64,000 nt of DNA from Aureimonas pseudogalii. Its GTDB lineage: Bacteria; Pseudomonadota; Alphaproteobacteria; Rhizobiales; Rhizobiaceae. A program made the position numbers and the translations under genes. Below, piece by piece: positions 12,969 to 57,032 of this stretch; the stretch's first letter is position 1; each line of letters opens with the position of its first letter. The DNA lies in NCBI RefSeq assembly GCF_014196835.1, contig NZ_JACIEK010000008.1:124001-188000 (forward strand). The letters are read 5' to 3'. The notes under the pieces were generated by a model. That model was not told the DNA's origin and did not search any database. It saw only the letters and a list, made by a program, of their open reading frames with translations.

Positions 12969-12971
12969 CGC

Positions 12972-14039: not shown

Positions 14040-14208
14040 CGTCGCCGATCCTAGCGTCTGCGTGCCGTCGGCACGAGAGCCCAAGCTCGGCGAATTCGCC
14101 GCCTCGGTCACCATGCCGGTTGAAACCTCCATCTCCGGCGGGCGCAGGCGATGCACAGGATCGGTTTCTTCCCTATGTTGCCGCAAAAGATCCGTCCCGT
14201 CGTGGCGG

Positions 14209-14736: not shown

Positions 14737-14818
14737 TCTCGGGCCCCTGCCAACGGCTTTCGCGATCCTATCTAAGGGCGAGTAGCATCGCCCGGTGCGA
14801 ACGCGGAGAACTCTCCTC

Positions 14819-15730: not shown

Positions 15731-15735
15731 CCGGA

Positions 15736-16983: not shown

Positions 16984-16985
16984 CG

Positions 16986-39048: not shown

Positions 39049-39052
<4 letters not shown>
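38183..39052 (-). CDS. pxpB: PxpB/KipI family protein (carboxyltransferase-like subunit)
   Basis: A 289-residue protein of the AHS1/KipI family, partner of PxpC. Recognisable stretches are GDEHIFVEVNEEMSL near the start, VEVPVFYDD-like IEVPVFYDDPW, and GFVAGLPFMYQM followed by GGCFGCIYSVRGAGGYQMFG. It is ~60 residues longer than the usual KipI because of an N-terminal extension. Start and stop each overlap the neighbouring genes by four bases (ATGA), showing tight translational coupling with the biotin carboxylase and pxpC. Confidence 0.9.
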
Positions 39053-40422
<1,370 letters not shown>

Positions 40423-40424: not shown

Positions 40425-40667
40425 TCAGGCGTCGAGATCGAGAAGCGGCTGGCCTGCCATCACCGCGTCCTCGTTCTCGACATGGAAGGCCTTCAGGATG
40501 CCGGCTTCTTCCGCCACGACGGGCGTGAAGCTCTTCATCACCTCGATGAGCCCGACCGTGTCGCCGACGGCGACGGTGTCGCCCTCCGACTTGAACACCG
40601 GCTCGCCGGGCGAGGGCGAGCGATAGAACGTTCCGGGAAGGGGGGCCATGATCGTGACGACCGGCAT
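40425..40667 (-). CDS. Short biotin carboxyl carrier protein (AccB-like)
   Basis: An 80-residue biotinyl domain starting MPVVTIMAPLPGTFYRSPSP, with the biotin-accepting Lys45 in IEVMKSFTPV (the usual M-K pair) and the second half VVAEEAGILKAFHVENED. It has none of the long Ala/Pro N-terminal region of acetyl-CoA carboxylase AccB, consistent with a dedicated carrier for the neighbouring enzyme. CAGGAG precedes the ATG. It is first in the operon and faces the LysR gene across 135 bp. Confidence 0.92.
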   Translation of the reverse strand: MPVVTIMAPLPGTFYRSPSPGEPVFKSEGDTVAVGDTVGLIEVMKSFTPVVAEEAGILKAFHVENEDAVMAGQPLLDLDA

Positions 40668-40775: not shown

Positions 40776-40802
40776 CGCGAAGTCTTGGTCAAAGGACGCG
40801 CC

Positions 40803-41768
40803 GTGTCGATCTCGCTCAAGCAGATGCGCTATTTCGTGGCGGCCGCCGAGACCGGACGGATCGGGCAAGCGGCGGTCGAGCTCAACGTCTCGCAATCGGC
40901 TGTGACGGCGGCGATTCAGCAGCTGGAGGGCGGATTGGGGCTGAAGCTCCTCGACCGCACGCCGGTCGGCGTTTCGGTGACGCTCGAGGGTGGGCGGTTC
41001 CTGCAGCAGGCGCGCGATATCCTGGCCGCCGTCGCGGAGGCCACGCGCCGTTCGCGCGTCTCGCCGCTGGAGGTCGACGGGTCGCTGCGCGTCGGCGTCA
41101 CCTATACGGTCGCAGGCTACTTCCTGCCGCGCCATCTCATGCGCTTTGCGGCGACCTTTCCCCATGTCGCGATCGATCTCTTCGAGGCGCCGCGGACCGT
41201 GATCGAACAGGCGCTGGCAGATGGGGCGCTCGACATGGCGGTGCTGCTCGTCTCCAATCTTCGCGGTTCGGCGCCGATCGCCTTCGAGACCTTGACACGC
41301 TCGCGCCGCCGCCTCTGGCTGGCGCCCGGCCATGCGCTGGCGCGACTGGACCGCCTCGGCCTCGCAGACGTGGCCGGCCACCCCTACGTCATGCTGACGG
41401 TGGACGAGGCGAAATCGACGACCCTGCGTTACTGGGATGCGGCGGGAGCGGCCCCCAACGTGCTGTTTCGCACCTCCTCGGTCGAAGCCGTGCGATCGAT
41501 GGTGGCCGGCGGCATGGGCGTGACGATCCTGTCCGACATGGTCTATCGGCCGTGGTCGCTCGACGGGCAGCGGATCGAGACGCGGCTTCTCAGAGAGGAT
41601 ATCCCGACCATGGACGTCGGCCTCGCCTGGGCTCGGGACGCCGCGCTGACGCTGCCCGCGGAAGCCTTCCGCGACTTCCTGCGGTTCGCTTTGACCGGGG
41701 TGGGGCACCAACGCCCGGATGAGCGCTCAATGCAGCCATCGATTTTGTCGATGACGGCGGCCAGTTAA
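40803..41768 (+). CDS. LysR family transcriptional regulator
   Basis: A 321-residue regulator. The N-terminal winged helix is MRYFVAAAETGRIGQAAVELN with SQSAVTAAIQQLEGGLGLKL; the rest is an effector domain of the periplasmic-binding type. The GTG at 40803 has AAAGGA about seven bases upstream; a TTG at 40785 gives six more residues. It is divergent from accB-accC-pxpB-pxpC and codirectional with pxpA and a GST gene, so it probably controls this locus in response to its substrate. Confidence 0.92.
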   Translation: MSISLKQMRYFVAAAETGRIGQAAVELNVSQSAVTAAIQQLEGGLGLKLLDRTPVGVSVTLEGGRFLQQARDILAAVAEATRRSRVSPLEVDGSLRVGVTYTVAGYFLPRHLMRFAATFPHVAIDLFEAPRTVIEQALADGALDMAVLLVSNLRGSAPIAFETLTRSRRRLWLAPGHALARLDRLGLADVAGHPYVMLTVDEAKSTTLRYWDAAGAAPNVLFRTSSVEAVRSMVAGGMGVTILSDMVYRPWSLDGQRIETRLLREDIPTMDVGLAWARDAALTLPAEAFRDFLRFALTGVGHQRPDERSMQPSILSMTAAS

Positions 41769-41837
41769 AGTCATTTGACGCTCCTTCTCCCGCCCTTCAG
41801 GCTTCGCTTCGAACCAAGACGATGGGGAGCCGAGGCG

Positions 41838-42563
41838 ATGGGTGTGCAGATCAACTGCGACATGGGCGAGAGCTTCGGGCTGTATCGCTGCGGCGACGAC
41901 GAGGGGCTGATGCCCCTCATCCACATCGCGAACGTCGCGTGCGGCTTCCACGCGTCGGATCCCGTGGTCATGCGCAAGACGGTGGCACTCGCCGCGCGAC
42001 ACGGCGTAGCGGTCGGCGCGCATCCGTCCTTTCCCGATCTGCAGGGGTTCGGGCGACGCGAGATGAAGATGGGGCGCGACGAGCTTTCGGCGGCACTTCT
42101 CTATCAAATCGGGGCGTTGAAGGGCTTCCTCGACGTCGCCGGGCTACCGCTGAACCATATCAAGCCGCATGGCGCTCTCTACGGGGCCGCGGCGCGAAAT
42201 GCCGAGGTGGCCGAGGCGGTCGCGGATGCCGCCGCGTCGTTCGGTGTCCCCGTTCTCGGCATGGCCGGCACCCATCACGAGACCGTCTACAAGGCGCGGG
42301 GCCTTGCCTTCCAAGCCGAGTATTACGTCGATCTCGATTACGATGCCGAGGGCCGCCTGATCATTACGCGTGAACACGACGCCAAGGACCCTACGGAGGC
42401 GGCCCGGCGGGCCGTCCGCGTGATGGAGGAAGGGATCGCCACCTCGATCGACGGCCACGAGTTCGCCATGCGCGCTGATTGCGTCTGCGTCCATTCCGAC
42501 ACGCCGAACGCGGTGGATCTCGCGCGCACCGTCCACACGGCGCTCCGCCCCTGGTTTGGCTGA
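41838..42563 (+). CDS. pxpA: PxpA/LamB/YcsF family protein
   Basis: A 241-residue protein of the LamB/YcsF family: INCDMGESFGLYRCGDD, HIANVACGFHASDPVVMR, VGAHPSFPDLQGFGRREM, HIKPHGALYG and CVHSDTPNAV. In PxpABC it cleaves the 5-oxoproline ring with PxpB and PxpC. The sugar/amide-hydrolase-like active-site residues appear intact. It is separated from pxpB and pxpC by the LysR gene and lies on the other strand, but in the same locus. The GST gene begins three bases after its stop. Confidence 0.92.
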   Translation: MGVQINCDMGESFGLYRCGDDEGLMPLIHIANVACGFHASDPVVMRKTVALAARHGVAVGAHPSFPDLQGFGRREMKMGRDELSAALLYQIGALKGFLDVAGLPLNHIKPHGALYGAAARNAEVAEAVADAAASFGVPVLGMAGTHHETVYKARGLAFQAEYYVDLDYDAEGRLIITREHDAKDPTEAARRAVRVMEEGIATSIDGHEFAMRADCVCVHSDTPNAVDLARTVHTALRPWFG

Positions 42564-42566: not shown

Positions 42567-43187
42567 GTGCGGCTCTACACCGGTCCGACGACGCCGTTCG
42601 GACGGATGGTCGAAGTCGTGGCGTATGAGGCGGGCATCGCGCTCGAGCGCGAGGTCATCGATGTCTACGAGGCGGAGTTTCTCGAAGCGGAGAACCCGCT
42701 GCGGCTGATCCCGACGCTGGTCGATACGCCGCACGGATCGCTGCACGACAGTCGCGTCATCTGCCGCTACCTCGCCGGGCTGGCGCCGGATCGGGGCTTC
42801 CTGCCGCCGGAGACGGACTGGCGGTTCGAGACCCGCCTGGCGCTGATCGCGGGCATCATGGATGCGGGCGTCGCCCGGCAGGGCGAGGTGTCGCGTGCGC
42901 CGGGTTCGAGCGAGGCGAGGTTGGCCCTCTTGGATCGCCGCATCCGGCTGGGTCTCGCCACGCTGGAGCGCGAGAGCGACGCGTTCGCGGCGAGTTGGCC
43001 GCGCCTCGACGCGATCGGCGCGGCGGCTCTCCTCGACTACCTGGAGTTTCGAATTGGCCTCGGCTGGCGTGCCGACGCACCGCGCCTCTCCGACTGGCTC
43101 GACGTGCGAAACGAGATGCCGTCCATGCAGGCCACCCGGTTCACGGGCGCTCAGCCGACGAGTTCGACCCAGCGGCGGACGAGGTAG
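42567..43187 (+). CDS. Glutathione S-transferase family protein
   Basis: A 206-residue GST-like protein. The N-terminal thioredoxin-like part has VRLYTGPTTPFGRMVEVVAYE (note absence of a CxxC), NPLRLIPTLVDTPHGSLHDSRVICRYL, the cis-Pro and SR that bind glutathione, and an all-helical C-terminal half. Start is GTG at 42567, just after pxpA. Its 3' end runs 37 bp into the opposite-strand binding-protein gene (43151-43187). Substrate unknown. Confidence 0.88.
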   Translation: MRLYTGPTTPFGRMVEVVAYEAGIALEREVIDVYEAEFLEAENPLRLIPTLVDTPHGSLHDSRVICRYLAGLAPDRGFLPPETDWRFETRLALIAGIMDAGVARQGEVSRAPGSSEARLALLDRRIRLGLATLERESDAFAASWPRLDAIGAAALLDYLEFRIGLGWRADAPRLSDWLDVRNEMPSMQATRFTGAQPTSSTQRRTR

Positions 43188-44383
43188 TTGTGCTCGTCCA
43201 TCGTCGTGTTCCAGACCGCGATGTTGGCGGCGCGGTCCCAGTAGGAACCGCCGGAGCGGATCGATCCGGCTTTGATCGAGGTTTGCCCCCCGGGACCGGG
43301 AAGGTCGACGCTCGCGGGGAGGCCGGCATACCAGTAGTCCCATTCGGGCGCGCTCAGATGGGGGCGGATGCGGTCGATGACCGACATGTAGTAGCCCTGC
43401 CGCGCGACCACGGCGCCCGGCCAGCCGGAGAGCCACCAGTTCAAATATTCGTAGGCGACGTCGAGCAGCCGGCCTTCCAGGCGAGCCGAGAGCGACAGGC
43501 CTCCATGCCACGCACGGTAGCCCTCCGCGGGAACTGCCTGCCGCACGGGAATCTTGCGCTGCTTGAGCGCCGCGATGCTCGGCGACCACATGCTGCCGAG
43601 CGCCATCGACCCGTCCGCCATCATCCGCGTCGCATCATCCACCGTCTGCCAGAAACCGGCGAAATGGCCGTCCGCCTTCAGAACGAGGAGGCGGTCGATC
43701 AACGCGTCGATTTCCTCCACCGACAGGTTGCCGGTATCGGCAAAGCGCATGAGACCGGCTGACTCCGCTGCCAGCACCGCGTCGAAGATGCCGATCGCCG
43801 GCTCGTCGACGAGGGCGACGCGCCCGTGGAAGGCGGGGTCCAGCAGTGCCTTCCAACTGCCGACGCGTTCGGGGTGACCGGCAACGGCGCGCTCGTCATA
43901 GGCGAAGGCATCGAAATTATGGACCGTCGGCAGCATCGAGATATGACGTGTGACGCGCGACCCCAGCGCCCCGTCGGCCTGCACGTAGAGTCGCGTCACC
44001 GGTGCGTCGCCGCGCCCGACACGAGCCGAGGGCCGGATCACGCCTTCGCGCGTCAGTTCGCTGACCTCGTTCCAGTTCGCGATGCGCGTCGTGTCGATCG
44101 CCTGCACGGCGCGCCAGTACCAGACGATGTCGAGATTGTGGAAGCACTGGTCGTAGATGTCGAAGGCATCCGGCGAGCGCGCAGCCTGCCGCTGCGTCGC
44201 CTGGAAGTTGCGGCAGTCGAACTCGATGCGAATGCCGAGGTCGGCTTCTGCCCGGGTGCGGATCTCGTCGAGCAGCGTGATCTCGGTGCCGAGGATGCGG
44301 AGGGTCGCGCGCTCGGTCGTCTGGCTTGCCGGGGCGGCAAGGCGCGACCTCGCCGGCCCTCGTTTGATCGTCAGTTCGTTCAT
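43151..44383 (-). CDS. Polyamine-type ABC binding protein paralogue, no export signal visible
   Basis: A 410-residue protein of the extracellular solute-binding family 1, PotD-like. Segments such as GYRAWHGGLSLSARLEG, NWWLSGWPGAVVARQGYYM and IRSGGSYWDRAANIAVWN match the other binding protein in this cluster (47946-49178), so the two are paralogues of equal length. The start MNELTIKRGPARSRLAAPAS has no hydrophobic leader, twin-Arg or lipobox, and the 30-codon open frame upstream does not provide one. Either it acts in the cytoplasm, or an unusual start exists. It is the last gene of the eleven-gene cluster. Confidence 0.85.
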   Translation of the reverse strand: MNELTIKRGPARSRLAAPASQTTERATLRILGTEITLLDEIRTRAEADLGIRIEFDCRNFQATQRQAARSPDAFDIYDQCFHNLDIVWYWRAVQAIDTTRIANWNEVSELTREGVIRPSARVGRGDAPVTRLYVQADGALGSRVTRHISMLPTVHNFDAFAYDERAVAGHPERVGSWKALLDPAFHGRVALVDEPAIGIFDAVLAAESAGLMRFADTGNLSVEEIDALIDRLLVLKADGHFAGFWQTVDDATRMMADGSMALGSMWSPSIAALKQRKIPVRQAVPAEGYRAWHGGLSLSARLEGRLLDVAYEYLNWWLSGWPGAVVARQGYYMSVIDRIRPHLSAPEWDYWYAGLPASVDLPGPGGQTSIKAGSIRSGGSYWDRAANIAVWNTTMDEHNYLVRRWVELVG

Positions 44384-44414
44384 GCCGGGGCTTTGCGGGG
44401 CGAAGGGGGCGAGG

Positions 44415-45461
44415 TCAAGCGGCCTCGATCCGCGCAGCGATGACAGATGTGGTCTCCCCGAGCACGAACGCATCGAAAGAGCGCCGGATGCGATCGGGCT
44501 CGATCCCGTCGACGATGAAGACCAGACGGGAGCGTCGGTCGTCGCTTGGCCATGCGGCCATATGGGTCGGCGGATGAACGAGATGTTGGACTCCGTGGAC
44601 GGCCACAGGCCGCTCCTCGCCTTCGAGATCGAGAATGCCCTTCACCCGCAGGATCGCCGAGCCGTGGCGGTTCAGCAGCATCGAGAGCCAGACGCCGAAC
44701 CGCGTCCAGTCCACGGCACGGTCGGGCACGATGGAGAACGCTTCGATGGCGTCGCCATGGCGGTTCGGGTCGTGCCGGTGGTGATGGTGCCCATGACCAT
44801 GTGCGTGATGGTGAGTGTCGTCGTCGACCGATTCGGCTGGGGTCTCGCTGAGAAGCCAGGTCACGTCCCAGCCGGCCGCGTTGGCGTCGCGGATCTCCGC
44901 CGCCGGGTTCATAAGCGCCAGGCGCGACCGCAGAGCCGCAGCCTCGGCCGGTGCCACGAGATCGGTCTTGGTCAGGAGGATGCGGTCGGCGCTGGCGATC
45001 TGCTTGCGCATCTCGACGCGGCGCTCGATACCGTCCGGCGCGTTCACCGCATCGATGGTCGCCCAGGTGCCCGCCACCGTGAAGTGATGGCTGACCACCG
45101 GGTCGGCGCGGATCGTTGAGAGGATCGGGAACGGGTCGGCGAGGCCGGTCGATTCGATCACCAGTCGGTCGAAGGCCGGCACGAGCCCGCGCTCGCGCTT
45201 CGACAGGAGATCGCGCATCGCGTCCGCCAACTCGCCGCGGATCGTACAGCAGAGGCATCCCGACTGGAGCAGGACGGTGGTCTCGTCGATGCGCTCGATG
45301 AGGTGGTGGTCGAGGCCGACCTCGCCGAATTCGTTGATGAGGACGGCGGCGCCGGCCAGGGCGGGATCCTTGAGGATCCGCCGCAGCAGCGTCGTCTTGC
45401 CGGACCCGAGGAAGCCGGTGAGAAGGTGGACCGGCGTGAAGACGGGCACTGCGGCGCTCAT
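44415..45461 (-). CDS. CobW/COG0523 family GTPase, probable metallochaperone
   Basis: A 348-residue G3E GTPase. Walker A TGFLGSGKTTLL (residues ~15-26), the CxCC motif GCLCCTIRGEL (Cys69, 71, 72), TKTD for guanine recognition, and a His-rich loop around 217-235 (THHHAHGHGHHHHRH). COG0523 proteins deliver zinc, cobalt or iron to enzymes; the His loop points to Zn or Co storage or handling. It overlaps the CxxC protein gene upstream by four bases and precedes the leaderless binding protein by 31 bp. Confidence 0.92.
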   Translation of the reverse strand: MSAAVPVFTPVHLLTGFLGSGKTTLLRRILKDPALAGAAVLINEFGEVGLDHHLIERIDETTVLLQSGCLCCTIRGELADAMRDLLSKRERGLVPAFDRLVIESTGLADPFPILSTIRADPVVSHHFTVAGTWATIDAVNAPDGIERRVEMRKQIASADRILLTKTDLVAPAEAAALRSRLALMNPAAEIRDANAAGWDVTWLLSETPAESVDDDTHHHAHGHGHHHHRHDPNRHGDAIEAFSIVPDRAVDWTRFGVWLSMLLNRHGSAILRVKGILDLEGEERPVAVHGVQHLVHPPTHMAAWPSDDRRSRLVFIVDGIEPDRIRRSFDAFVLGETTSVIAARIEAA

Positions 45462-45784
45462 GCCTGCGCCTCCAACCGGACGAGAAGATCGGGGTCGAGC
45501 GGATCGAAGAGCCGACCCGAGAGCCGCTCTGCCGCGGGCCAGAGATGCGCGAGGTTCTCGATGATCTCGGTCTTGCCGGTGGCGGTCGCCAGCACATAGC
45601 TGCGGCCGTGCCAGTCGCTCAATGTCAGCCGATAGGCGCGCAGCACGTCGTTGGCGGCGCGGATGCGGCGGGTGCGCTCGGCGCGCCGGCGCAGTGGCTC
45701 CTCGTTGCGCGAGAAGACGCCCGGACGCGCCACCGCGTCGCTCCAGTGGTCGTCGACGCCGAGAACGCCGCAGAGTGAGCACAT
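45458..45784 (-). CDS. Small CxxC protein, unknown function, coupled to CobW
   Basis: A 108-residue protein that opens MCSLCGVLGVDDHWSDAVA, so a CxxC sits at residues 2-5, followed by an Arg-rich helix (RRRAERTRRIRAANDVL) and a beta-rich C-terminal part (SDWHGRSYVLATATGKTEII). I do not recognise a family. The four-base overlap with the CobW gene suggests obligate co-production. Cys and His near the N-terminus could bind metal, making it a possible client, adaptor or Zn sink for CobW; this is inference. Confidence 0.8.
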   Translation of the reverse strand: MCSLCGVLGVDDHWSDAVARPGVFSRNEEPLRRRAERTRRIRAANDVLRAYRLTLSDWHGRSYVLATATGKTEIIENLAHLWPAAERLSGRLFDPLDPDLLVRLEAQA

Positions 45785-45850
45785 CGCGATCAGCCTCCTC
45801 GCTGGAAAGAAACCGGACGCCGCCCCGAGGCGAGCGCCCGGCGAAGCGTC

Positions 45851-46732
45851 CTACTTCCGGCGCGGCGAGCGCCGGGCGAAGTCGTCGGCCATCTCGTTCA
45901 TCGTTACGAAGCGCACGCCCTCGTGGCCCTTCATGTACTCGAACAGGCGTTCGAGCATGAGGAGCACCTGCGGGCGGCCCGACACGTCGGGATGGATGGT
46001 GATCGGGAACACCGCATAGTCCATCTCGCGATAGACCCAGTCGAACTGGTCGCGCCACATCTGTTCGATGTCGCGGGGATTGACGAAGCCGTGGCTGTTG
46101 GGCGCCTTCTTGATGAACATCATCGGCGGCAGATCGTCGAGATACCAGTTGGCGGGGATCTCGATGAGGTCGGTCTCGTGGCCCCGCGTCAGCGGCACCA
46201 TCCAATCCTTGGGCTGGCCGGCATAGTCGATCTTCGTCCACTTGTCGCCGACCCGCACATAGTAGGGCGTGAAGTCGTTGTGCATCAGCGAGTGATCGTA
46301 CTTGATGCCGCGCTCCAGCAGCAGCTCGTTCGTGACGGTCGAGAACTCCCACCATGGCGCGACGTAGCCGGTGGGGCGCTTGCCCGACAGCTTCTCGACG
46401 AGGTCGATGCACTTGTCGAGGACCTGCGTCTCCTGCTCGCGGGTCATCGCGATCGGGTTTTCGTGGGTGTAGCCGTGGATGCCGATCTCGTGGCCGGCAT
46501 CGGCCACCGCCTTCATCTGGTCCGGGAAGGTCTCGATCGAATGGCCGGGGATGAACCAGGTCGTCTGGATGTCGAAGCGCTGGAACATCTTGAGGAGGCG
46601 GGGCGATCCGACCTCGCCGGCGAACAGGCCGCGCGAGATGTCGTCCGGCGAATCCTCACCGCCGTAGGATCCGAGCCAACCGGCGACCGCATCGACGTCG
46701 ATGCCGAAGCCGCAGAGGATTTCCTTTGCCAT
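45851..46732 (-). CDS. CE4 polysaccharide-deacetylase-fold hydrolase, HpPgdA/cyclic-imidase type
   Basis: A 293-residue NodB-fold protein. The metal triad is Asp14 ([18 protein letters not shown]), His86 and His90 ([11 protein letters not shown]), the positions reported for Helicobacter PgdA, whose length is also 293 as I recall. Relatives include cyclic imide hydrolases and a peptidoglycan deacetylase. There is no signal peptide, so it works in the cytoplasm, favouring a small-molecule amide or imide over a wall polymer. Position in an uptake cluster with CobW and dehydrogenases supports ring-opening or deacylation of the imported compound; its substrate is unproven. Confidence 0.9.
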
Positions 46733-46777
46733 GGAATGGTCTCCCTTGAAGATATGGTAGGTCGGGCTCGACGCCGG

Positions 46778-47863
46778 TCAGGCGGCGATGACGGTGGAGC
46801 GGGCAGGGTCCCAGGACATGACGACCGTATCGCCCTCGCGTGCCGTGAGATCGCGGAACCGGTCGACATGGGATTCCACCTGCACCGGCTTGCGGCCGGG
46901 CAATGCGACGCGCAGCGTGCCGACATGGCCGACGATCTCGCGCGAGAGCACGGTGCCCTCGACGCGGTTGTGCGCCATGGCCTGCCAGCCGGGGGGGTGG
47001 ACGTCGAGCGCATCGGACGGGATCGCGATGATCGCCTTGCCGCCGGTCGCGACCTCGCGCGGACCGACGCCCTCCATCGGGCCGAACGGCGTGTCGAGGC
47101 GGGCGCTGCCCGCTCGCGTCGGTGCGGCGACGGTGCCTTCGAAGATCGTGTTGGCGCCGATGAAGCCGGCGACGAACGGCGTCTGCGGCCGGGTGTAGAG
47201 CTCGCGCGGGTCGGAGATCTGCTCGACCTTACCGTTGCTCATCACGACAACGCGGTCGGACAGGCCGAGCGCTTCGGACTGGGCGTGCGTGACGAAGACG
47301 AAGGTGATGCCGAGTTCCGTCTGGAGCAGCTTCAATTCGTTCTGGATGATGCGGCGCAGATTCGCGTCGAGCGCGCCGAGCGGCTCGTCGAGGAGGAGGA
47401 TGTCGGGCTCCACCACGAGGCCGCGCGCGAGCGCGATGCGCTGGCGCTGGCCGCCCGAGAGGCGATCGGCGCGGTGCTGGGCGATGTCGGTGAGGCCGAG
47501 CTTCTCGAGGATGCGACCGACGCGGCGCTTGCGCTCGGCGGCGGCGATGCCCCTGACCGCCAGTCCGTACTCGACGTTCTTCCAGACGTTCATATGCGGA
47601 AACAGCGCGTAGTTCTGGAAGATCATCGAGGTCGGCCGGCGCTCCGGCGGCACGTCGGTGACGTTGCGACCCTTGATGATGATGTCGCCGGAGGTGATCG
47701 TCTCGAACCCGGCGATCATCCGCAGCGTCGTCGTCTTGCCGCAGCCGGAGGGGCCGAGGAAGGCGACGAACTCGCCCTTCTCGACGGCGAGATCGAAGTT
47801 CGATACCGCCGTGGTGCCGTCGTCGTAGACTTTGCCCACCTGGATGAGTTCGAGATCGTGCAT
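46778..47863 (-). CDS. ABC transporter ATPase, polyamine type (PotA-like), first of two
   Basis: A 361-residue ATPase. MHDLELIQVGKVYDDG, Walker A GPSGCGKTTTLRMIA, signature LSGGQRQRIALARGL, Walker B LLLDEPLGALDANL and a C-terminal TOBE-type regulatory domain (VEGTVLSREIVGHVG). This is typical of the spermidine/iron/molybdate-type subgroup. A second ATPase is encoded at 52553-53632, so either one transporter uses a heterodimer or two related systems share this cluster. Follows the binding protein gene by 82 bp and precedes the CE4 gene by 45 bp. Confidence 0.92.
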   Translation of the reverse strand: MHDLELIQVGKVYDDGTTAVSNFDLAVEKGEFVAFLGPSGCGKTTTLRMIAGFETITSGDIIIKGRNVTDVPPERRPTSMIFQNYALFPHMNVWKNVEYGLAVRGIAAAERKRRVGRILEKLGLTDIAQHRADRLSGGQRQRIALARGLVVEPDILLLDEPLGALDANLRRIIQNELKLLQTELGITFVFVTHAQSEALGLSDRVVVMSNGKVEQISDPRELYTRPQTPFVAGFIGANTIFEGTVAAPTRAGSARLDTPFGPMEGVGPREVATGGKAIIAIPSDALDVHPPGWQAMAHNRVEGTVLSREIVGHVGTLRVALPGRKPVQVESHVDRFRDLTAREGDTVVMSWDPARSTVIAA

Positions 47864-47945
47864 GGCCGCAATCCGCTGGTCACGCGCCGACAGGACGGCG
47901 CGGGGAAGAGATGCGAGGCGGCGGATGCCGCCTCGCGCCGAGCCG

Positions 47946-49178
47946 TCAGGCGTTGAGGAATTCGTCCCACTTCTGGACGAGCGCGTCGTACTCGTCCGGC
48001 CACTGGTGCCAGTAGGCGACGTTGGCGGCGCGCGTGGCGAGCGAGCCGCCGTCGCGCAGATCGCCTTCCTTGATGCCGCGCTCGGCCGCGCCGGCCCACG
48101 GCTTGCCCTCGTACCAGAAAGCGTACTTCATCGGGTCCATCGCCTTCTCGATGTTGGTCGACGGCGAATAGTAACCCTGCTCGGAGACGGTGATGCCCGG
48201 CTCACCCGACAGCCAGTAATTGGCGTAGGCCGCCACGGCGGCCGCGTTCGGCGTGCCCTTCAACATGGCGGGGCCGATGGCCCAGGCGCGGTAGCCCTCC
48301 TTCGGCACCGCGTAGCGGCAGGCCTTGCCCTGTGCCTTGACGGCCATGACGGCCGGCTGCCACGCGTCGCACACCACCATCTCGCCGGAAGCGAGGAGGT
48401 TGACCAGCTCGCCGAAATCACCCCAGAGCGCCCGGAACTGACCCTCCTTCTTCTTGGCGATGAGGAAGTTGCCGGCCTCTTCCAGCTCTTCGGCCGTCGG
48501 GTTGCCGGGGTTCTTGGCTTCGAGCAGGCCGAGCGAGTTCATCGCGAGGATCGCCTGACCGATGGCGATCAGCGGGTCGGTGTTGAGGCCCGACTTGCCC
48601 TTCCACTTCGGGTCGAACAGCGCGGTCCAGCTGTTGGCCTCTTCCTCCGAGACGACGTCGGGATTGTAACCGATCGAATCGTAGTTGTAGACGGCCGGGA
48701 CCATCCAGAGGTTGGTCTGGTTCTCGTCCGTCCAGATCTGGCCGACGATCTGCGCCGAGCGGTCCCACTTCGGATCGGGCTTGGTGAACGTGTCGCGGAT
48801 CGCGGCCCAGTTCGGCACGTCGGAGACGGCGATCGGGGCCGCGTGATCGGTCATCGTGATCGCAGGCAGACGCTCGCCGATCACCTCCCAGCAATCGTAG
48901 TCGGACGAGCCCGACAGGATCTTCGTCTGCGCATCGGGGAAGGTCGCCGCCGTTCCGGAGGTGGAACCGACGCCCGACGCCGTCTTGAAGTTCGCGAGGA
49001 TGCGCTCCTGCACCGTGGTCGAGAGACCGGTGGTGCGCAGGCTCTCGCTCGCGAGATTGGCGGCCTGCGCATAGGCGCGGCCCGAGCCGAGGAACGGCGT
49101 GCCGCCGCCGAGGGCCAGCGCCATGGCGCCAGCGGTGCCCTTCAGCATCGTGCGCCGGTCGAGTTCTTTGCGGATCAT
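47946..49178 (-). CDS. Tat-exported ABC binding protein, polyamine type (PotD-like)
   Basis: A 410-residue periplasmic receptor. The N-terminus MIRKELDRRTMLKGTAGA carries a twin-arginine signal (RRTMLKG), with a hydrophobic region ending GRAYAQA. The mature part has a PotD-like pattern including PKEGYRAWAIGPAMLKG and ANYWLSGEPGITVSEQGYYS. Relatives bind spermidine, putrescine and other organic cations. It is the probable receptor for the two permeases at 50762-52541. A leaderless paralogue ends the same cluster. Confidence 0.92.
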   Translation of the reverse strand: MIRKELDRRTMLKGTAGAMALALGGGTPFLGSGRAYAQAANLASESLRTTGLSTTVQERILANFKTASGVGSTSGTAATFPDAQTKILSGSSDYDCWEVIGERLPAITMTDHAAPIAVSDVPNWAAIRDTFTKPDPKWDRSAQIVGQIWTDENQTNLWMVPAVYNYDSIGYNPDVVSEEEANSWTALFDPKWKGKSGLNTDPLIAIGQAILAMNSLGLLEAKNPGNPTAEELEEAGNFLIAKKKEGQFRALWGDFGELVNLLASGEMVVCDAWQPAVMAVKAQGKACRYAVPKEGYRAWAIGPAMLKGTPNAAAVAAYANYWLSGEPGITVSEQGYYSPSTNIEKAMDPMKYAFWYEGKPWAGAAERGIKEGDLRDGGSLATRAANVAYWHQWPDEYDALVQKWDEFLNA

Positions 49179-49245
49179 GCTGGAAGCTCCTTGTAAGTGG
49201 ACGGGAAGGCACGACGCACGGCGGAGACCGGGCGAGGAGGGGTGA

Positions 49246-50019
49246 TCAGTAGCGGCCGACGATCAGGCCGCCGTCGACGGTAAGGGTCTGGCCGGTAAGG
49301 TAGCGGGCGCCGTTCGAGCAGAGGAAATGGATGACGTCGGCGATGTCTTCGGGCTCCCCGAGCCGGCCCATCGGAATGAACTCGGCGGCCTTCTCGGCGC
49401 CGGCCGGACCGAGCGAGTTCTTCTCCGAGAGAAGCTGCGCGGTGCGGATGTAGCCGGGCGCCACGCCGTTCACGCGAATGCCCTCGCGCGCCAGCTCGAC
49501 CGCCAGTCCGCGCACGAGACCGACGACGCCCGACTTGGCGGCCGAGTAGTGGACATGCTCGTCCCAGCCGTAGGCGACGCCCATGATCGAGGAAAGGCAG
49601 ACGATGGCGCCGGATCGGCGCGCCCGCATCCCGGGAAGGGCTGGGCGCACGACGCGCAGGATGCCCTTCAGGTCGACGTCGAACGTGTGATCCCACTTTG
49701 CATCGGTCATCTCGGCCAGCGGCACCCGGTGGGCGATGCCGGCATTGGCGACGATCACGTCGATCGCCCCGTGCCGGGGCTCGACATCGGCGACGAGCGC
49801 GTCGGCGGCTTCCGTGGACGTAACGTCGAGCCGAAGGAACTCGGCCGAGCCGCCCGAGGCCTCGATCGCGGCGGCGACCTCGCGGCCTTCCGTCTCAAGG
49901 ACGTCGGTGACGACGACATGGTCGCCGGCCGCGGCGAAGGCCTCGGCGGTGGCCCGGCCGATGCCGATGCCGGCGCCGGTGACGAGGACGATGCGGGAAG
50001 AGGTCATGGCGATATCCAT
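49246..50019 (-). CDS. SDR family oxidoreductase A
   Basis: A 257-residue classical SDR. Cofactor loop VTGAGIGIGRATA, IVANAGIAHR, catalytic Ser in IVCLSSIMGV and YSAAKSGVVG (Tyr and Lys), and LTGQTLTVDGGLIVG at the end. The start at 50019 overlaps the previous SDR stop (TGATG); ATG at 50007 is an alternative. It probably oxidises or reduces a hydroxyl/keto group in the compound imported by this cluster. Confidence 0.92.
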   Translation of the reverse strand: MDIAMTSSRIVLVTGAGIGIGRATAEAFAAAGDHVVVTDVLETEGREVAAAIEASGGSAEFLRLDVTSTEAADALVADVEPRHGAIDVIVANAGIAHRVPLAEMTDAKWDHTFDVDLKGILRVVRPALPGMRARRSGAIVCLSSIMGVAYGWDEHVHYSAAKSGVVGLVRGLAVELAREGIRVNGVAPGYIRTAQLLSEKNSLGPAGAEKAAEFIPMGRLGEPEDIADVIHFLCSNGARYLTGQTLTVDGGLIVGRY

Positions 50020-50762
50020 CAAAGCATCACGTCGCCGGAATTCGGCCCGAGCGTCTGGCCGGCGTAGATCGCGGCATCGGTGGAGGCGAGAAAGGCGACG
50101 GTGCCCGCCACGTCCTCGGGTTCGCCGAAGCGCCCGAGCGGCAGCTCGGCGCGCTTGGCGGCCTGCCAGTCGGGCGAGAGCGCGCGCACCAGCGGCGTGT
50201 TGATCGGGCCGGGCGCGACGGCGTTCACCCGCACGCCGCGGTCGGAGACCTCGCGCGCCAGCGATTTCGTCAGTCCGATGATCGCGGCCTTCGCGGCGGC
50301 GTAATGCGAGAGCTCGACGCCGCCGATCTGGCCGAGCTGTGAAGCCATGTTCACGACGATGCCCTCGCCGGCCGCCAGCATTCCCGGCAACACGGCCTTG
50401 GTCATCAGGAAGGTGCCGCGCACATGCACCGCGAACATGCGATCGAAGTCGGCGACGCCGAGGTCCTCGAAGCGTGCCTGATGGACGTGTCCGGCATTGT
50501 TGACGAGAAGCCCGACCGGGCCGAACGTCTCCGTCGCCAGATGCACGGCGGCCGCAACGCTGGCCTCGTTCGAAACATCGGCTTGCGCCCATGCGGTTTC
50601 GAAACCGGCGGCGCGCAGACGGCGGTTGGCGTACTCGGCCTTTGCGCCGTCGAGATCCAGCAGCACGACGCGGGCGCCATCGGTGGCGAGCCGTTCGGCG
50701 ACCGCAAGACCGATGCCCGAGGCGGCGCCCGTGACGATCGCGGTTCCCGTGAAGGCGGCCAT
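50019..50762 (-). CDS. SDR family oxidoreductase B
   Basis: A 247-residue classical SDR. Cofactor loop VTGAASGIGLAVAERLA, LVNNAGHVHQ, catalytic Ser in VVNMASQLGQIGG and YAAAKAAIIGLTKSLA, ending IYAGQTLGPNSG. It begins on the stop of the permease (TGATG at 50760-50764) and overlaps SDR A, so four genes from the permease to SDR A are translationally linked. Two consecutive SDRs suggest a two-step oxidation or alternative stereochemistry. Confidence 0.92.
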   Translation of the reverse strand: MAAFTGTAIVTGAASGIGLAVAERLATDGARVVLLDLDGAKAEYANRRLRAAGFETAWAQADVSNEASVAAAVHLATETFGPVGLLVNNAGHVHQARFEDLGVADFDRMFAVHVRGTFLMTKAVLPGMLAAGEGIVVNMASQLGQIGGVELSHYAAAKAAIIGLTKSLAREVSDRGVRVNAVAPGPINTPLVRALSPDWQAAKRAELPLGRFGEPEDVAGTVAFLASTDAAIYAGQTLGPNSGDVML

Positions 50763-51604
50763 CAGACGGCCTCCGCCGGCACGCGCTTGGCGCGGTTGAC
50801 GGACTGCACCATGAGCACCGCGTAGACCGCGAGGAGGGCGAAGGAGAACAGCGTCGTCAATACGCCGAAGGCGAAGACGTTGGGATGGATCTCCACCGAG
50901 AAGGTTCCGTAGATCGCCAGCGGCAGGGTGAGCTGCGGGCCGGAGGTAAAGAGCGTGCGGGCGAACTCGTCGTAGGAGAGCGTGAAGGCGAAGAGCATGG
51001 CCGACAGGACGCCGGGGAAGATCACCGGGAAGGTGACCTTGCGGAACGTCGTCACCGGCGAGACGCCGAGCGACCAGGCGGCCTCCTCAATGGAGCGGTC
51101 GAAGCGGTTGAAGATCGCCAGCATCACGAGGAAGGCGAAGGGGTAGGTGTAGACGACGTGCAGCACGAAGGCGGTGCCCCACCAGGCGCGATCGACGCCG
51201 ACGAGATTGGCGAAAAGCGCCATGCCGAGGCCGACGAGGATGCCGGGCACCATCATGCCGAGCACGATGAGATAGAAGACCGGCCCCGAGCCCTTGAAGC
51301 GCTGGCGGAAGGCCTGCGCCGAGGCGACGCCGAGCAACGTCGAGACCACCATCGTCATGAAAGCCAGCGCCAGAGAGCGCAGGAGGCCATCCGCGATCGG
51401 CAGCGGCGCGATGCGCGTCGCCGGCACGAGGCCGAAGAGCTGGCGATACCAGTAGGTCGACCATTCCACGATCGGGAACTGTGGCCCGCCCTCCGGACCC
51501 GACTGGAACGAGAGAATCGCGAGCACCACGAAGGGCCCGTAGAGGAAGACGAGGAAGAGCGCGGTGTAGACGGCCAGCGCGGGTTTCAGGATGCCGGTCT
51601 GCAT
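50762..51604 (-). CDS. ABC transporter permease, PotC-like
   Basis: A 280-residue inner-membrane protein with six hydrophobic segments (LAVYTALFLVFLYGPFVVLA; MTMVVSTLLGVASAQAF; FYLIVLGMMVPGILVGLGMA; FVLHVVYTYPFAFLVMLA; LSAMLFAFTLSYDEF; LLAVYAVLMVQ). The EAA-type loop IEEAAWSLGVSPVTTFRKVTFP contacts the ATPase. It pairs with the next permease to form the translocation channel. Confidence 0.92.
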   Translation of the reverse strand: MQTGILKPALAVYTALFLVFLYGPFVVLAILSFQSGPEGGPQFPIVEWSTYWYRQLFGLVPATRIAPLPIADGLLRSLALAFMTMVVSTLLGVASAQAFRQRFKGSGPVFYLIVLGMMVPGILVGLGMALFANLVGVDRAWWGTAFVLHVVYTYPFAFLVMLAIFNRFDRSIEEAAWSLGVSPVTTFRKVTFPVIFPGVLSAMLFAFTLSYDEFARTLFTSGPQLTLPLAIYGTFSVEIHPNVFAFGVLTTLFSFALLAVYAVLMVQSVNRAKRVPAEAV

Positions 51605-51617
51605 CGAAGCGTCCCTC

Positions 51618-52541
51618 TCAAAGCTCGTTGCGCAGGTTGACGACGCGCAGCAGGCCCGCGATCACCGCCCCCATCAGCAGCGTCAGGATGCAGCCCGCCA
51701 CCGCGGCGAACGCCCATTTCAGCGAACCGACCTGGCTGACGATGATGTTGCCGAGCATGTTGGTCTTGCGACCCGACAAGGCGGCGGCCGTCGCGAACTC
51801 GCCGAGCACCATGACCGAGACGAAGATCGCGCCGACCACGACGCCGGGCAGCGACAGCGGCAGGATGATCGTGCGGAAGATGCGCCCGAAGCCGGCGCCG
51901 AGATCGCGCGCCGCCTCGATGACGTTGGGGTCGATGCGACCGAGCATGAAGGTGATGGGGCCGACCATGAAAACGCAGTAGATCTGCGTCATGCCGATGA
52001 TCACCGAGAGTTCGGAGAAGAGAAGGATGTCGAGCGGCTGGTCGATGATGCCGAGCTTCATCATGATCAGATTGATCGCGCCCTGCGTGCCCAGCATCGG
52101 CCGCCATGCCAGCACCCGGATGAGGAACGAGGTCCAGAAGGGGATGACGCAGAGGACGAGCAGCACCGTCTGCAGCGTCTTCGACTTCAGCATCAGGCCG
52201 ATGAACAGCGAGACGGGGTAGCCGACGACGAGCGTCGAAGCAAGGACGATCAGCCAGATGCGGACGGTGGTCCAGAGCGCGTCGAGATAGGTCGCGTTGG
52301 TCAGGAAGCGGACCCAACTGGCGACCGTGAGCTTCGGCTCCACCGCGAAGGTCGTCTGCGTCCAGAACGAGACGTAGACCACCATGATCATCGGCAGCAC
52401 GAGGAAGAGCGTCATCCAGGCGACGCCAGGCGCCAGCAAGAGCCACGACGTGCGGCGACGCTTGGCGTCCCGCCGTGCGGCCGGCGACAGGCCGCCGGCC
52501 TCTGCGATGCCGCCGGTCGATGGGATGACGTCCGTTGTCAT
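51618..52541 (-). CDS. ABC transporter permease, PotB-like
   Basis: A 307-residue permease with a cytoplasmic N-terminus (RRDAKRRRTSWLLLAPG), six membrane segments and the coupling loop NVIEAARDLGAGFGRIFRTI. AAGAGG six bases before ATG 52541 supports this start over a GTG at 52556 that overlaps the ATPase stop. It is separated from the PotC-like permease by 13 bp. The pair with ATPase and Tat-exported receptor makes a complete importer. Confidence 0.91.
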   Translation of the reverse strand: MTTDVIPSTGGIAEAGGLSPAARRDAKRRRTSWLLLAPGVAWMTLFLVLPMIMVVYVSFWTQTTFAVEPKLTVASWVRFLTNATYLDALWTTVRIWLIVLASTLVVGYPVSLFIGLMLKSKTLQTVLLVLCVIPFWTSFLIRVLAWRPMLGTQGAINLIMMKLGIIDQPLDILLFSELSVIIGMTQIYCVFMVGPITFMLGRIDPNVIEAARDLGAGFGRIFRTIILPLSLPGVVVGAIFVSVMVLGEFATAAALSGRKTNMLGNIIVSQVGSLKWAFAAVAGCILTLLMGAVIAGLLRVVNLRNEL

Positions 52542-52552
52542 GGCGGGCCTCT

Positions 52553-53632
52553 TCACGCGAAGACGAGCGCGTCGCGGCGCTTCCAGGAAAGGGCGTAGCG
52601 GGCGTCGGCTTCGAGTCGCTGCGGCTCGCCGCGGCTCAGATGCTCCTCCACCTCGACGATGCGCCCGTCGTCGAGCGCGAAGAAGGAGAGGACCGAGGCG
52701 CCGCTATATTCGCTGGCGAGGAATCGGGCGCTGAGCCCGGCTTCGTCGTCGGCCATCTCGGTCGCAGGCGCACGCACGGCGATGCAGTCGTGGCGGATGG
52801 CATAGACCGGCGCCTCGTGACCGCTGCGCAGGCTCGCGGTATCCATCGCCAGAAGCCCGGCCTCGGTGCGGAAGGCCGTGCCGTCGAGGCGACCCGGCAG
52901 GAGGTTGAAGGCGTTGAGATAGCGCGCGACGCCGGGCGAGGCGGGTTCGGCATAGACATCGGCCGGCGCGGCGAACTGGCCGACGCGGCCGGCGTCAAGC
53001 ACGACGAGCCGGTCGCCCATCGCCAGCGCTTCGGTTTCCGAACCGGTGACGTGCAGGAAGGTGACGCCGAGATCGCGCCGGATCTGGCGAAGCTCGTCGC
53101 GCATCCGGGCGCGCAGATGTGCATCCAGCGCGCCGAGCGGTTCGTCGAGAAGCACGAGTTTCGGGCGCGTCACCAGCGTTCTCGCCAGCGCCACGCGCTG
53201 TCGCTGGCCGCCGGAGATCTGCGTGACCGAGCGCTGCTCCAGCCCCTTCAGGCCGACCATCTCGATGGCCTCGGCCACCATCGCCGCCCGCTTGGCCTCG
53301 TCGCGCACGGGGTTCACGGTGCGATGGGTCAGGCCGAAGGCGACGTTGTCGCGCACGTTGAGATGGGGAAACAGTGCGAAATTCTGGAACACGAAACCGA
53401 TGCCGCGTTCATGTGCCGGACGCCCGTCGAGACGTGTGCCTTCGAAGGTGATCGTACCCGTTTCCGGCTCGTCGAAACCGGCGATGAGGCGCAGCAGGGT
53501 GGTCTTGCCGGAGCCGCTGGCACCGAGCAGCGAGACGTAGGCGTCGGCGGGAATCGAGAGGTCGACGCCCTCGATCGCCGGCCTGCCCGCGAACGATTTC
53601 GAGACATTGGAAAGGGAGAGGATCGTCGCCAT
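52553..53632 (-). CDS. ABC transporter ATPase, polyamine type (PotA-like), second of two
   Basis: A 359-residue ATPase: MATILSLSNVSKSFAGRPA, Walker A GASGSGKTTLLRLIA, signature ISGGQRQRVALARTL, Walker B VLLDEPLGALDAHL and a C-terminal TOBE-like domain. It is the first gene of the eleven-gene cluster. The start at 53632 is the conserved N-terminus; an in-frame GTG/ATG at 53701 would add a disordered tail. The promoter region upstream holds an inverted repeat and the divergent GntR regulator. Confidence 0.92.
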   Translation of the reverse strand: MATILSLSNVSKSFAGRPAIEGVDLSIPADAYVSLLGASGSGKTTLLRLIAGFDEPETGTITFEGTRLDGRPAHERGIGFVFQNFALFPHLNVRDNVAFGLTHRTVNPVRDEAKRAAMVAEAIEMVGLKGLEQRSVTQISGGQRQRVALARTLVTRPKLVLLDEPLGALDAHLRARMRDELRQIRRDLGVTFLHVTGSETEALAMGDRLVVLDAGRVGQFAAPADVYAEPASPGVARYLNAFNLLPGRLDGTAFRTEAGLLAMDTASLRSGHEAPVYAIRHDCIAVRAPATEMADDEAGLSARFLASEYSGASVLSFFALDDGRIVEVEEHLSRGEPQRLEADARYALSWKRRDALVFA

Positions 53633-54085
53633 CGAGTGTCCCGGATCGTCGGCGCGACGGGGAATTCGACCGTCAGCCGAACTGCCTCCAACGCTGTTCA
53701 CGATCTGACGCTATCAGCGGTGATTTTTGTATTCAACAGTCATTCATGGGTTGAATATCGAGGGTAATGGGTTGGTGTTGCTCAAGGTGCAGGACTGGCG
53801 TAAAAGTTAGCACTCGCAGCATTTCAAGCGACCCCATTCCCTGATCTGCCGTTTCACCGTAGCTTTGTGGCCGATTGGCACGAAATGCGGGTGTTTGCTA
53901 TGATGCGGATGGTTTAGGCGTCGATCCAAACGTTGTCTGTCAGGGCTGTCTTGCGCTGCAGGTGTCTACCGAATGGGCGGCATTGCGGCATAAGTATGCA
54001 ATAGGCATTTTTTGATGGCGGCCTTGTGCTGGACAAGTTTTGTAGGCCGGGCGACACCAATAGCGGCTCCAAAACGGGAATCGTG
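53633..54085. promoter_or_regulatory. Divergent promoter region between the ABC cluster and the GntR-like gene
   Basis: A 453-bp gap without a credible gene. It is visibly less G+C-rich than the genes on either side, as expected for a control region. It contains the inverted repeat listed separately and several A+T-rich patches near 53860-54010. It should include promoters for the eleven-gene operon (leftward) and the regulator (rightward). I could not assign precise -35/-10 boxes. Confidence 0.5.
53730..53757. repeat. Inverted repeat, candidate operator for the GntR-like regulator
   Basis: TATTCAAC (53730-53737) and GTTGAATA (53750-53757) form perfect 8-base arms about a 12-base spacer. It lies 98 bp upstream of the first ATPase start and 329 bp upstream of the regulator. 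A palindrome of this size in the shared promoter gap is a natural binding site for a dimeric winged-helix protein. Binding is inferred from position and symmetry only. Confidence 0.5.
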
Positions 54086-55102
54086 ATGCAGGATCGTGCG
54101 CTCGCGGCACTGCCGCGCCGCTATGAGGTCGTAGCCGACACGCTGAGGCGGAACATCGATGCGGGTCGCCTGCCCGAAGGTACGGTGCTGCTCGAAGGCC
54201 CGCTGGCGCAAATCTTTCGGCTCTCCCGTGCGCCGGTACAGCGGGCCCTTCAGGAGTTGGAGGGCGAGGGTCTGGTCGCCCGTTTCGAGGGGCGGGGTTA
54301 CCTGGTCGTCGGATCCAGCGTCGCACGCCAGCCCCGGCGTCTGGATCTCGCCAGTCTCGACCTCGATCTGCCCATCGAGGCCGACGATGGGTTCCGTGAC
54401 CGGCAAACGTGGCGCCAGATCTACGAAACCGTCGAAGGCGACATCACGCGGTGCCTGGTCTTCGGTCGCTACCGCATCATCGAGACCGAACTCGCCGAGC
54501 ATTTCCGCGTCTCGCGGACGATCGTACGTGACGTGCTGGGGCGGCTGCAGGACCGCCGGCTGGTGAACAAGGGTGCGAACTCGCACTGGATCGCCGGACC
54601 GATCACGGCCCGCACGATCAAGGATCAGTTCGAGATCCGACGGATTCTCGAACCGCCGGCGCTGATATCGGCGGCGGGCTTCCTGCCGGCGCATCGCCTG
54701 GAAGCCGTCCTCGCCGAACTGCGTGGCGCCGAAAGCCGCGCCGCCGCCCGACACCCGGAGGCGACCGCCGATCTGTCGACCCACGTCAGTCGCGAGATCG
54801 TGCTGGCGACCCCGAACGAGGCCCTACGCGAACTGGTGGCACGCAATCTCCGGATGGTGACGCTGTCGCAGCAGGTGCTCCAGGGTCTGGGCCTGCCGCA
54901 GGATCTGGCCGCTCTCGCCGAGCAGCGCATGACCGTGGAACTCCTCGTCCACGGCGCACACGAGGCCGCCGCCAGCATGCTCTCGACCCATCTCGACGCC
55001 GCCAAGCACCGCACGATCGCCCAGATGAAGATCGTCGCCGTCATCCCGCCGCCGACCGGACTCGCATCCTACCTGCGCCGTGCCGAAACCGACGCCGACT
55101 GA
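54086..55102 (+). CDS. GntR-family regulator with two winged-helix domains and an FCD-like domain
   Basis: A 338-residue protein. A first GntR winged helix covers residues ~12-78 (RYEVVADTLRRNIDAGRLPE; LSRAPVQRALQELEGEGLV; GYLVVG). A second covers ~110-180 (YETVEGDITRCLVFGRYRI; VSRTIVRDVLGRLQDRRLV). The rest (~185-325) is helical with ISAAGFLPAHR and HLDAAKHRTIAQM, as in FCD effector domains. Most GntR proteins have one DNA-binding domain. The ATG at 54086 follows a possible GTG one codon earlier. Divergent from the ABC cluster, which it probably controls. Confidence 0.88.
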   Translation: MQDRALAALPRRYEVVADTLRRNIDAGRLPEGTVLLEGPLAQIFRLSRAPVQRALQELEGEGLVARFEGRGYLVVGSSVARQPRRLDLASLDLDLPIEADDGFRDRQTWRQIYETVEGDITRCLVFGRYRIIETELAEHFRVSRTIVRDVLGRLQDRRLVNKGANSHWIAGPITARTIKDQFEIRRILEPPALISAAGFLPAHRLEAVLAELRGAESRAAARHPEATADLSTHVSREIVLATPNEALRELVARNLRMVTLSQQVLQGLGLPQDLAALAEQRMTVELLVHGAHEAAASMLSTHLDAAKHRTIAQMKIVAVIPPPTGLASYLRRAETDAD

Positions 55103-56537: not shown

Positions 56538-56545
56538 GGGGCGAC

Positions 56546-57013: not shown

Positions 57014-57032
57014 GGGCTTCGACTCCACTTCG

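Follow-up and report, generated by a model that had tools for sequence, protein, structure and literature searches.

The window, as we call the whole 64,000-nt stretch of DNA analyzed here (contig NZ_JACIEK010000008.1, positions 124,001 to 188,000), comes from the 5.0-Mb genome of Aureimonas pseudogalii. On its minus strand, at 43151-53632, lie 11 codirectional genes, several of them overlapping, which an earlier note on this DNA had read as a single import and modification cluster. All 11 are present at the coordinates given in that note, in the order ATPase1-permease1-permease2-SDR1-SDR2-SBP1-ATPase2-CE4-CxxC-CobW-SBP2, where SDR stands for short-chain dehydrogenase and SBP for solute-binding protein. 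Named domains were confirmed for 10 of them; the exception is the CxxC protein. We argue, with moderate confidence, that this is an operon for breaking down a small cyclic amide, most likely either a cyclic imide or a lactam with a hydroxyl group; the substrate and the reactions are what we infer. The genes are as follows.

52553..53632, minus strand: ATP-binding cassette (ABC) transporter ATPase 1, POT/opine type (ABC_tran and TOBE_2; score below the PotA cut-off)
51618..52541, minus strand: ABC permease 1 (BPD_transp_1)
50762..51604, minus strand: ABC permease 2 (BPD_transp_1)
50019..50762, minus strand: SDR1 (adh_short/adh_short_C2)
49246..50019, minus strand: SDR2 (adh_short_C2)
47946..49178, minus strand: SBP1, a solute receptor predicted to be exported by the twin-arginine (Tat) route (SBP_bac_8; twin-Arg motif)
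46778..47863, minus strand: ABC transporter ATPase 2 (ABC_tran and TOBE_2)
45851..46732, minus strand: CE4 hydrolase, HpPgdA / probable cyclic-imide-hydrolase type (full-length match to HpPgdA, 3qbu)
45458..45784, minus strand: CxxC protein, 108 aa, MCxxCG...HW (no family match; tied to CE4)
44415..45461, minus strand: CobW/COG0523 GTPase with a CLCC motif and a His-rich loop (cobW and CobW_C; CxCC at residue 69)
43151..44383, minus strand: SBP2, a solute-binding-fold protein without export signal (SBP_bac_8; judged from its fold and N-termini)

The cluster is kept in order across many Hyphomicrobiales. A tblastn search with the CE4 protein found matches in 506 of 72,556 plasmid records, mostly below 60% identity, and the same 11 genes stand in the same order on R. 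johnstonii pRL12, on an Agrobacterium plasmid and on the 'Roseateles' XES5 plasmid. All three carry a PxpA-biotin carboxyl carrier protein-biotin carboxylase-PxpB-PxpC block on the far side of the GntR gene and an amidase gene after SBP2. In a genome scan with the same protein, the best 80 of at least 590 relatives were kept as loci, which are close relatives by construction (the best matches come from Aurantimonas, 97%, and Aureimonas, 96%). The same importer is present in 44 of these 80. Among the importer loci, SDR2 was found in all 44 and SDR1 in 43, counted at identities of at least 60% and at least 55%, respectively, so that neither stands in for the other; CxxC, CobW, SBP2 and the GntR regulator were each found in 43. 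The sole importer locus without SDR1, CxxC, CobW, SBP2 and GntR is L078, a 13-kb contig of a metagenome-assembled genome. Because the same order recurs on three plasmids and the importer keeps near-constant partners in 44 of 80 loci, the grouping is not a matter of chance. These counts also support, at the level of gene content, the two SDR oxidation steps that had been proposed.

Two side points concern the distribution. Of the plasmid matches to the window's CE4, the best (89.1%) is on a plasmid labelled Roseateles (L002, NZ_CP084754.1; Betaproteobacteria, UNVERIFIED_ORG), and the other matches in the listed top 40 plasmids carry Rhizobiaceae names; the label may be wrong or the plasmid foreign. 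The att region of Agrobacterium pAtC58 was considered as a possible instance of the same cluster and rejected: CE4 is missing from its 49 kb, and all it shares is a related transporter.

The predicted chemistry centers on the CE4 protein, which matches HpPgdA (3qbu/4ly4) over its full length (residues 1-293, 536.7 bits) and has, by inspection, no signal peptide. Papers are cited here by PMC number for individual passages. Residues D12, D14, H86, H90 and H247, which bind the ion or water in HpPgdA (PMC3084791), are kept in 83 of 83 aligned CE4 sequences, as are W127 and W196, which in that protein block access to the ion (PMC3084791). Identity as the allantoinase PuuE was rejected, the TIGR03212 score being 83.0 bits against a cut-off of 424.6. 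HxnM of A. nidulans is classed as CE4_HpPgdA_like (PMC8478523) and shares 64.2% identity with a P. putida cyclic imide hydrolase homologue (PMC9304392). Deletion of hxnM leads to accumulation of 3-hydroxypiperidine-2,6-dione (PMC9304392), and genetic evidence places the enzyme at the opening of that ring, between the SDR HxnW and the amidase HxnN (PMC9304392, PMC8478523). The window's CE4 is likely of this cyclic-imide-hydrolase type and would open an imide to a half-amide. Gene content bears out the metal-dependent C-N bond cleavage by an imidase-type CE4 enzyme that the earlier note had read into the cluster. The H. pylori relative, HpPgdA, may be misnamed.

The core of the cluster is the CE4-CxxC-CobW triad. 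Of all 80 loci, 78 have CxxC and 74 have CobW no more than 3 kb from CE4; CobW is just past 3 kb in L083, and L025, L055 and L057 end soon after CE4. The triad usually stays together where the importer is absent, beside a symporter gene (L008), major facilitator superfamily (MFS) genes (L080 and L083) or unrelated genes. When 190 genomes were sampled evenly from the class, 10 had CE4 (at least 56% identity), and all 10 were among the 11 with CxxC; three further CE4 matches at 40-44% come without CxxC, and in the remaining CxxC genome the adjoining CE4 is 29% identical. Among 121 genomes of the family, CE4 (at least 64%) and CxxC share one set of 19 genomes, while one more genome has only 39-41% CE4 matches and no CxxC. 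The hypergeometric P values for this co-occurrence, which ignore relatedness, are 1.4e-22 in the family and 8e-16 in the class. The two genes lie at most 279 bp apart in 27 of 29 distinct pairs, the others being 1172 and 3035 bp apart. By annotation, the triad also occurs in Rubrobacter (Actinomycetota) and in Enterobacterales plasmids, where MFS and SDR genes break it up. Paraburkholderia (L127) is an exception: its CxxC-CobW pair has an annotated allantoinase for a neighbor, and no match to CE4 was found in that stretch. In one locus (L089, genome G169, 8325-17048), CxxC-CobW and a 29%-identical CE4 adjoin Ribonuc_L-PSP (RidA-type), ferredoxin-reductase and two Phenol_Hydrox-type monooxygenase genes.

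The tie between CE4, CxxC and CobW is new. The CobW protein, with its cobW and CobW_C domains and CxCC motif, qualifies as a COG0523 metallochaperone, a group whose clients are, to our knowledge, mostly unknown. The CxxC protein has no match in the family libraries searched, its profile found nothing in the PDB below E 0.45, and its structure model (mean predicted local distance difference test score, pLDDT, 78) has no PDB match at E ≤ 0.001. CxxC and CobW are probably a metal-maturation pair.

The second new element is SBP2, which lacks an export signal. Its model (mean pLDDT 84.1) matches the receptors YdcS, PotD and PotF, and over 385 residues it shares 29% identity with SBP1. A twin-Arg motif is present in 45 of 47 SBP1 orthologues versus 0 of 47 for SBP2, and an 11-residue stretch of mean hydropathy of at least 1.0 precedes strand 1 in 45 of 46 SBP1 versus 3 of 47 SBP2 sequences; the three positive SBP2 leads are short and not signal-like. 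In these comparisons, starts were chosen by hand and export signals judged by motif, hydropathy and inspection rather than by a signal-peptide program. Hydropathy over the first 60 residues does not separate SBP1 from SBP2, because that span takes in the first strand. In four family genomes SBP2 is located at the opposite end of the cluster and does not overlap CobW; no export signal was seen in these copies (4/4), nor in those of Klebsiella, Pantoea, Leisingera and Thioclava (4/4; Leisingera is L125, the other three loci being L124, L126 and L128). Moreover, SBP2 is kept where the cluster contains an MFS gene (L083, Klebsiella, Pantoea) or an NCS1 gene (Leisingera). Pantoea and Klebsiella have another ABC transporter beyond the regulator, on the opposite strand and with its own annotated receptor, so the argument for an SBP2 apart from an ABC importer is cleanest for L083 and Leisingera. 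Given the missing export signals and the persistence in MFS and NCS1 clusters, SBP2 is probably a cytosolic solute-binding-fold protein, and the earlier note's count of two receptors is given up. Across 28 aligned SBP2 sequences, His82, His155 and His398 are invariant and His293 nearly so; the SBP1 residues at positions 155, 293 and 398 are Tyr, Ala and Tyr. Cytosolic enzymes with this fold exist in other systems, and an enzyme or carrier role for SBP2 is possible. The host genome also holds a signal-bearing SBP2 paralogue with ABC genes adjoining.

The importer itself, by its sequence, belongs to the polyamine/opine transporter family, which agrees with the uptake function first assigned to it. 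Its two PotA equivalog scores, 327.7 and 275.1, fall below the cut-off of 482, and SBP1 scores 18.3 against 582 for PotD and 20.2 against 636 for PotF. The acidic ligand residues of PotD, which we take to be D168, E171 and D257, correspond to P, A and I in SBP1 in one pairwise alignment. Since SBP1 is far below the PotF and PotD cut-offs and these acidic positions are replaced, a neutral or zwitterionic ring compound appears to fit its site better than the polyamine-like ligand that the earlier note had in mind.

The genes that accompany the cluster elsewhere extend the predicted route. An amidase gene is present in 35 of 44 importer loci, with none in the window. It is of the PRK06102 type, scoring above the NF004766 cut-off in four of the five scanned (L001, L073, L083 and L112) and below it in L106. 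A cyclase-family gene follows the amidase in L001 (17904-18872) and in 7 of 44 importer loci. Asparaginase-family genes occupy other places: after SBP2 in L046, beside GntR in L007 and before CE4 in L081, with annotated asparaginases after SBP2 in Thioclava and divergent from CE4 in Rubrobacter. On another contig, the host genome encodes a 78% relative of the L007 asparaginase. Each of the two enzymes acts on an open-chain amide, which is what imide opening should yield; the apparent exchange of one for the other is new. Relatives of HyuA occur in 10 of 44 importer loci; the HyuAB genes are nearest the caprolactamase CapAB, below the CapAB cut-off. Old yellow enzyme (OYE) genes occur in L073 and L106 (63% alike). 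L073, with the row SDR1-SDR2-amidase-OYE-CE4-CxxC-CobW-HyuB-HyuA-PxpA-biotin carboxylase-PxpB-PxpC, holds OYE, SDR, imidase-type CE4 and amidase together; the window cluster has no OYE. An Asp at the end of strand 2 confers NAD preference on SDRs, and its occurrence in SDR1 suggests that this enzyme uses NAD.

The genes flanking the operon in the window are as follows.

54026..55102, plus strand: GntR regulator, divergent, with two helix-turn-helix stretches (domain match)
42567..43187, plus strand: glutathione S-transferase-like protein between the operon and the Pxp block (GST_N)
41775..42563, plus strand: PxpA-like protein, LamB/YcsF (above the PxpA subfamily cut-off, below the equivalog cut-off)
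40785..41768, plus strand: LysR regulator (domain match)
40425..40667, minus strand: biotin carboxyl carrier protein, EVMK (Biotin_lipoyl)
39049..40422, minus strand: biotin carboxylase (Biotin_carb domains)
38183..39052, minus strand: PxpB-like carboxyltransferase subunit (CT_C_D)
37191..38186, minus strand: PxpC-like carboxyltransferase subunit (CT_A_B; scanned with a longer N-terminus, 37191-38255)

The adjacent PxpA-PxpBC-biotin locus, which the earlier note suggested could process the opened product, is part of the cluster's conserved setting: PxpC is present in 34 of 44 importer loci, within flanks limited to 10 kb. It falls short of the 5-oxoprolinase equivalogs (PxpC, 211.8 against 500; PxpA, 233.7 against 392) and of the urea carboxylase equivalog (238.9 against 1303.85). 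The PxpA subfamily model is matched above its cut-off, as is a urea-amidolyase-related domain model by PxpC. We infer that the locus likely encodes an amide-N carboxylase and a PxpA hydrolase. A wider link to urea or guanidine carboxylation was set aside as a single case among the 80 loci (L062, 12524-20329), in which CE4-CxxC-CobW precedes genes for an NMT1-type receptor, a pair of DUF1989 proteins and a fused urea-carboxylase-type protein of 1179 aa. In Leisingera (L125, 16190-18285), a second, distant CE4 (27%) has as its flanking genes a 'urea carboxylase-associated' gene and a further amidase.

The divergent regulator that had been noted beside the operon is the GntR gene. An inverted repeat, CGCAT-6 bp-ATGCG, lies upstream of ATPase1, between it and GntR, in 11 of 46 loci (e.g., L014 and L052). 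In 20 mononucleotide shuffles no dyad occurred in more than 2 of 46; this control takes no account of relatedness. The repeat is a possible GntR operator; it was not found in the window. On the minus strand beside the GntR gene (55161-57475), pieces of a molybdenum hydroxylase (MoCoBD_1, MoCoBD_2 and Fer2_2) lie in separate frames and look like a decayed gene set.

Together, these genes suggest the following scheme, in which a small ring amide is most likely imported and broken down for nitrogen and carbon. The ABC importer and Tat-exported SBP1 would take the compound in. One or both SDRs would oxidize ring hydroxyls, for example, converting a cyclic hemiaminal (hydroxylactam) to an imide. 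CE4 would hydrolyze the imide to a half-amide. The half-amide would then yield a dicarboxylate and ammonia through the amidase that most importer-bearing relatives encode, or through an asparaginase-type enzyme, which some relatives encode and the host genome carries elsewhere. The PxpA/biotin-carboxylase/PxpBC locus could open a lactam form after N-carboxylation, CxxC and the CobW GTPase would supply or install the CE4 metal, and SBP2 would bind a ligand in the cytosol. We favor a cyclic amide because of the HpPgdA-like CE4 with its HxnM parallel, the amidase and asparaginase genes, and the hydantoinase, racemase, lactamase-type, NCS1 and OYE neighbors.

Several observations weigh against this scheme. 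Nine of 44 importer loci have no amidase, an asparaginase is found in only 3 of those 9 (L007 and L046 by Pfam; L006 by clustering only), and the host genome has no close amidase (best 37%) and no HyuA match in a search run without a positive control. OYE is absent from the 11 genes and present in only 1 of 80 loci. An SDR pair next to CE4 is missing in Leisingera and Rubrobacter, and L078 and L081 (2 of 80 loci) have neither CxxC nor CobW next to CE4. HpPgdA was inactive on allantoin (PMC3084791), HP0310 has been reported as an acetylesterase/acetylxylan esterase (PMC3688963), and the HpPgdA-like fungal Cod4 deacetylates chito-oligosaccharides (PMC6957412). The varying neighbors may also mean that different clusters handle different rings.

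The neighbors bear as well on a less probable account, which we regard as unlikely: that the operon serves hydantoin or dihydropyrimidine (cyclic ureide) catabolism, with CE4 either replacing hydantoinase or joining it as another cyclic amidohydrolase, and a carbamoyl acid as product. D-hydantoinase, CN_hydrolase and 3-hydroxyisobutyrate-dehydrogenase-type genes stand beside CE4-CxxC-CobW in several family loci, D-hydantoinase scores above cut-off in L071, L107, L108 and L110, hydantoin racemase relatives occur in L054, L067, L071 and L084, and in Leisingera an annotated NCS1 transporter replaces the importer. NCS1 carriers are known for nucleobases and hydantoins. The Paraburkholderia allantoinase beside CxxC-CobW points the same way. 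However, the 11 genes include neither hydantoinase nor carbamoylase, and the amidase and asparaginase of relatives indicate a plain amide product.

It is less probable still, and in our judgment quite improbable, that CE4 deacetylates an imported acetylated amine, such as an N-acyl-polyamine or amino sugar, whose product the SDRs oxidize. The importer family would suit such a role, HpPgdA-like genes were linked to polyamine importers already in 2011 (PMC3084791), and the HP0310 and Cod4 reports describe deacetylase or esterase activity. Yet HpPgdA was inactive on N-acetyl-putrescine, -spermidine and -cadaverine, as on acetyl dipeptides (PMC3084791), the acidic positions presumed for PotD are replaced in SBP1, and the lactamase and hydantoinase neighbors do not fit. 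An incidental grouping around peptidoglycan modification is very improbable: the CE4 family name and an HP0310 deletion strain, described in work that PMC6957412 cites as more acetylated and more sensitive to lysozyme, speak for it, but the lack of a signal peptide, the conserved catabolic setting and the inactivity of HpPgdA on GlcNAc and chitotriose (PMC3084791) speak against it.

It is useful to compare the cyclic amide operon with known systems. No bacterial pathway with this 11-gene set was found described in open-access papers, nor any literature there on the R. leguminosarum pRL12 locus tags; a rhizosphere fosmid with CobW and amidase is, from the passages of PMC3676327, unrelated. The earlier note's remark on the lack of a described pathway calls for a qualification, in that the fungal HxnT/W/M/N kit (PMC9304392) matches. 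This lower hxn route of A. nidulans is the closest worked-out parallel found; the lower part of fungal nicotinate breakdown uses OYE, SDR, CE4 and amidase in order (PMC9304392). The bacterial cluster shares with it the SDR and HpPgdA-like CE4, the amidase in relatives and OYE in L073 and L106 only. Unlike the fungal pathway, it has no HxnX/HxnV-type monooxygenase among its 11 genes and adds an importer, CxxC-CobW, SBP2 and the biotin-linked Pxp locus. HpPgdA (HP0310) is of the same CE4 subfamily but in another context, and the P. putida YZ-26 imidase, whose context also differs, is linked through HxnM in papers rather than by direct sequence comparison. PotABCD and PotFGHI share the transporter family and receptor fold, but the cluster lies below the Pot cut-offs, with two ATPase genes and an SBP1 lacking acidic ligand positions. 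PxpABC 5-oxoprolinase and urea carboxylase share the LamB/YcsF and CT_A_B/CT_C_D subunits, to which the window locus, below the PxpA and PxpC equivalog cut-offs, adds biotin carboxylase and carrier. COG0523 metallochaperones, such as CobW and the Fe-type nitrile hydratase activator, share the GTPase and CobW_C domains, the CxCC motif and a gene beside a metal hydrolase; neither a constant small CxxC partner nor a CE4 client was seen in the PMC2770081 passages. Overall, the C-N bond cluster, uptake, two SDR steps and Pxp link first proposed stand on gene content, whereas the two receptors and the polyamine-like ligand do not.

A bolder joint proposal, which we put forward tentatively and consider doubtful as a whole, is that CxxC-CobW is a new and dedicated metallocenter-maturation pair for HpPgdA-type cyclic-imide hydrolases, perhaps also for other cyclic amidohydrolases such as the Paraburkholderia allantoinase, and that SBP2, having lost export, has become a cytosolic enzyme or substrate carrier for the same cyclic compound. 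If so, the H. pylori 'peptidoglycan deacetylase' would be a cyclic-imide hydrolase. More broadly, the cluster suggests for the large and widely annotated HpPgdA-type 'polysaccharide deacetylase' family a catabolic role that can be tested on a concrete list of substrates, and it puts forward a defined client and a partner for one COG0523 GTPase. Finally, clusters built around three different kinds of transporter keep a solute-binding-fold protein that probably remains intracellular, which is reason to look for a new function of this fold, as an enzyme or a carrier.

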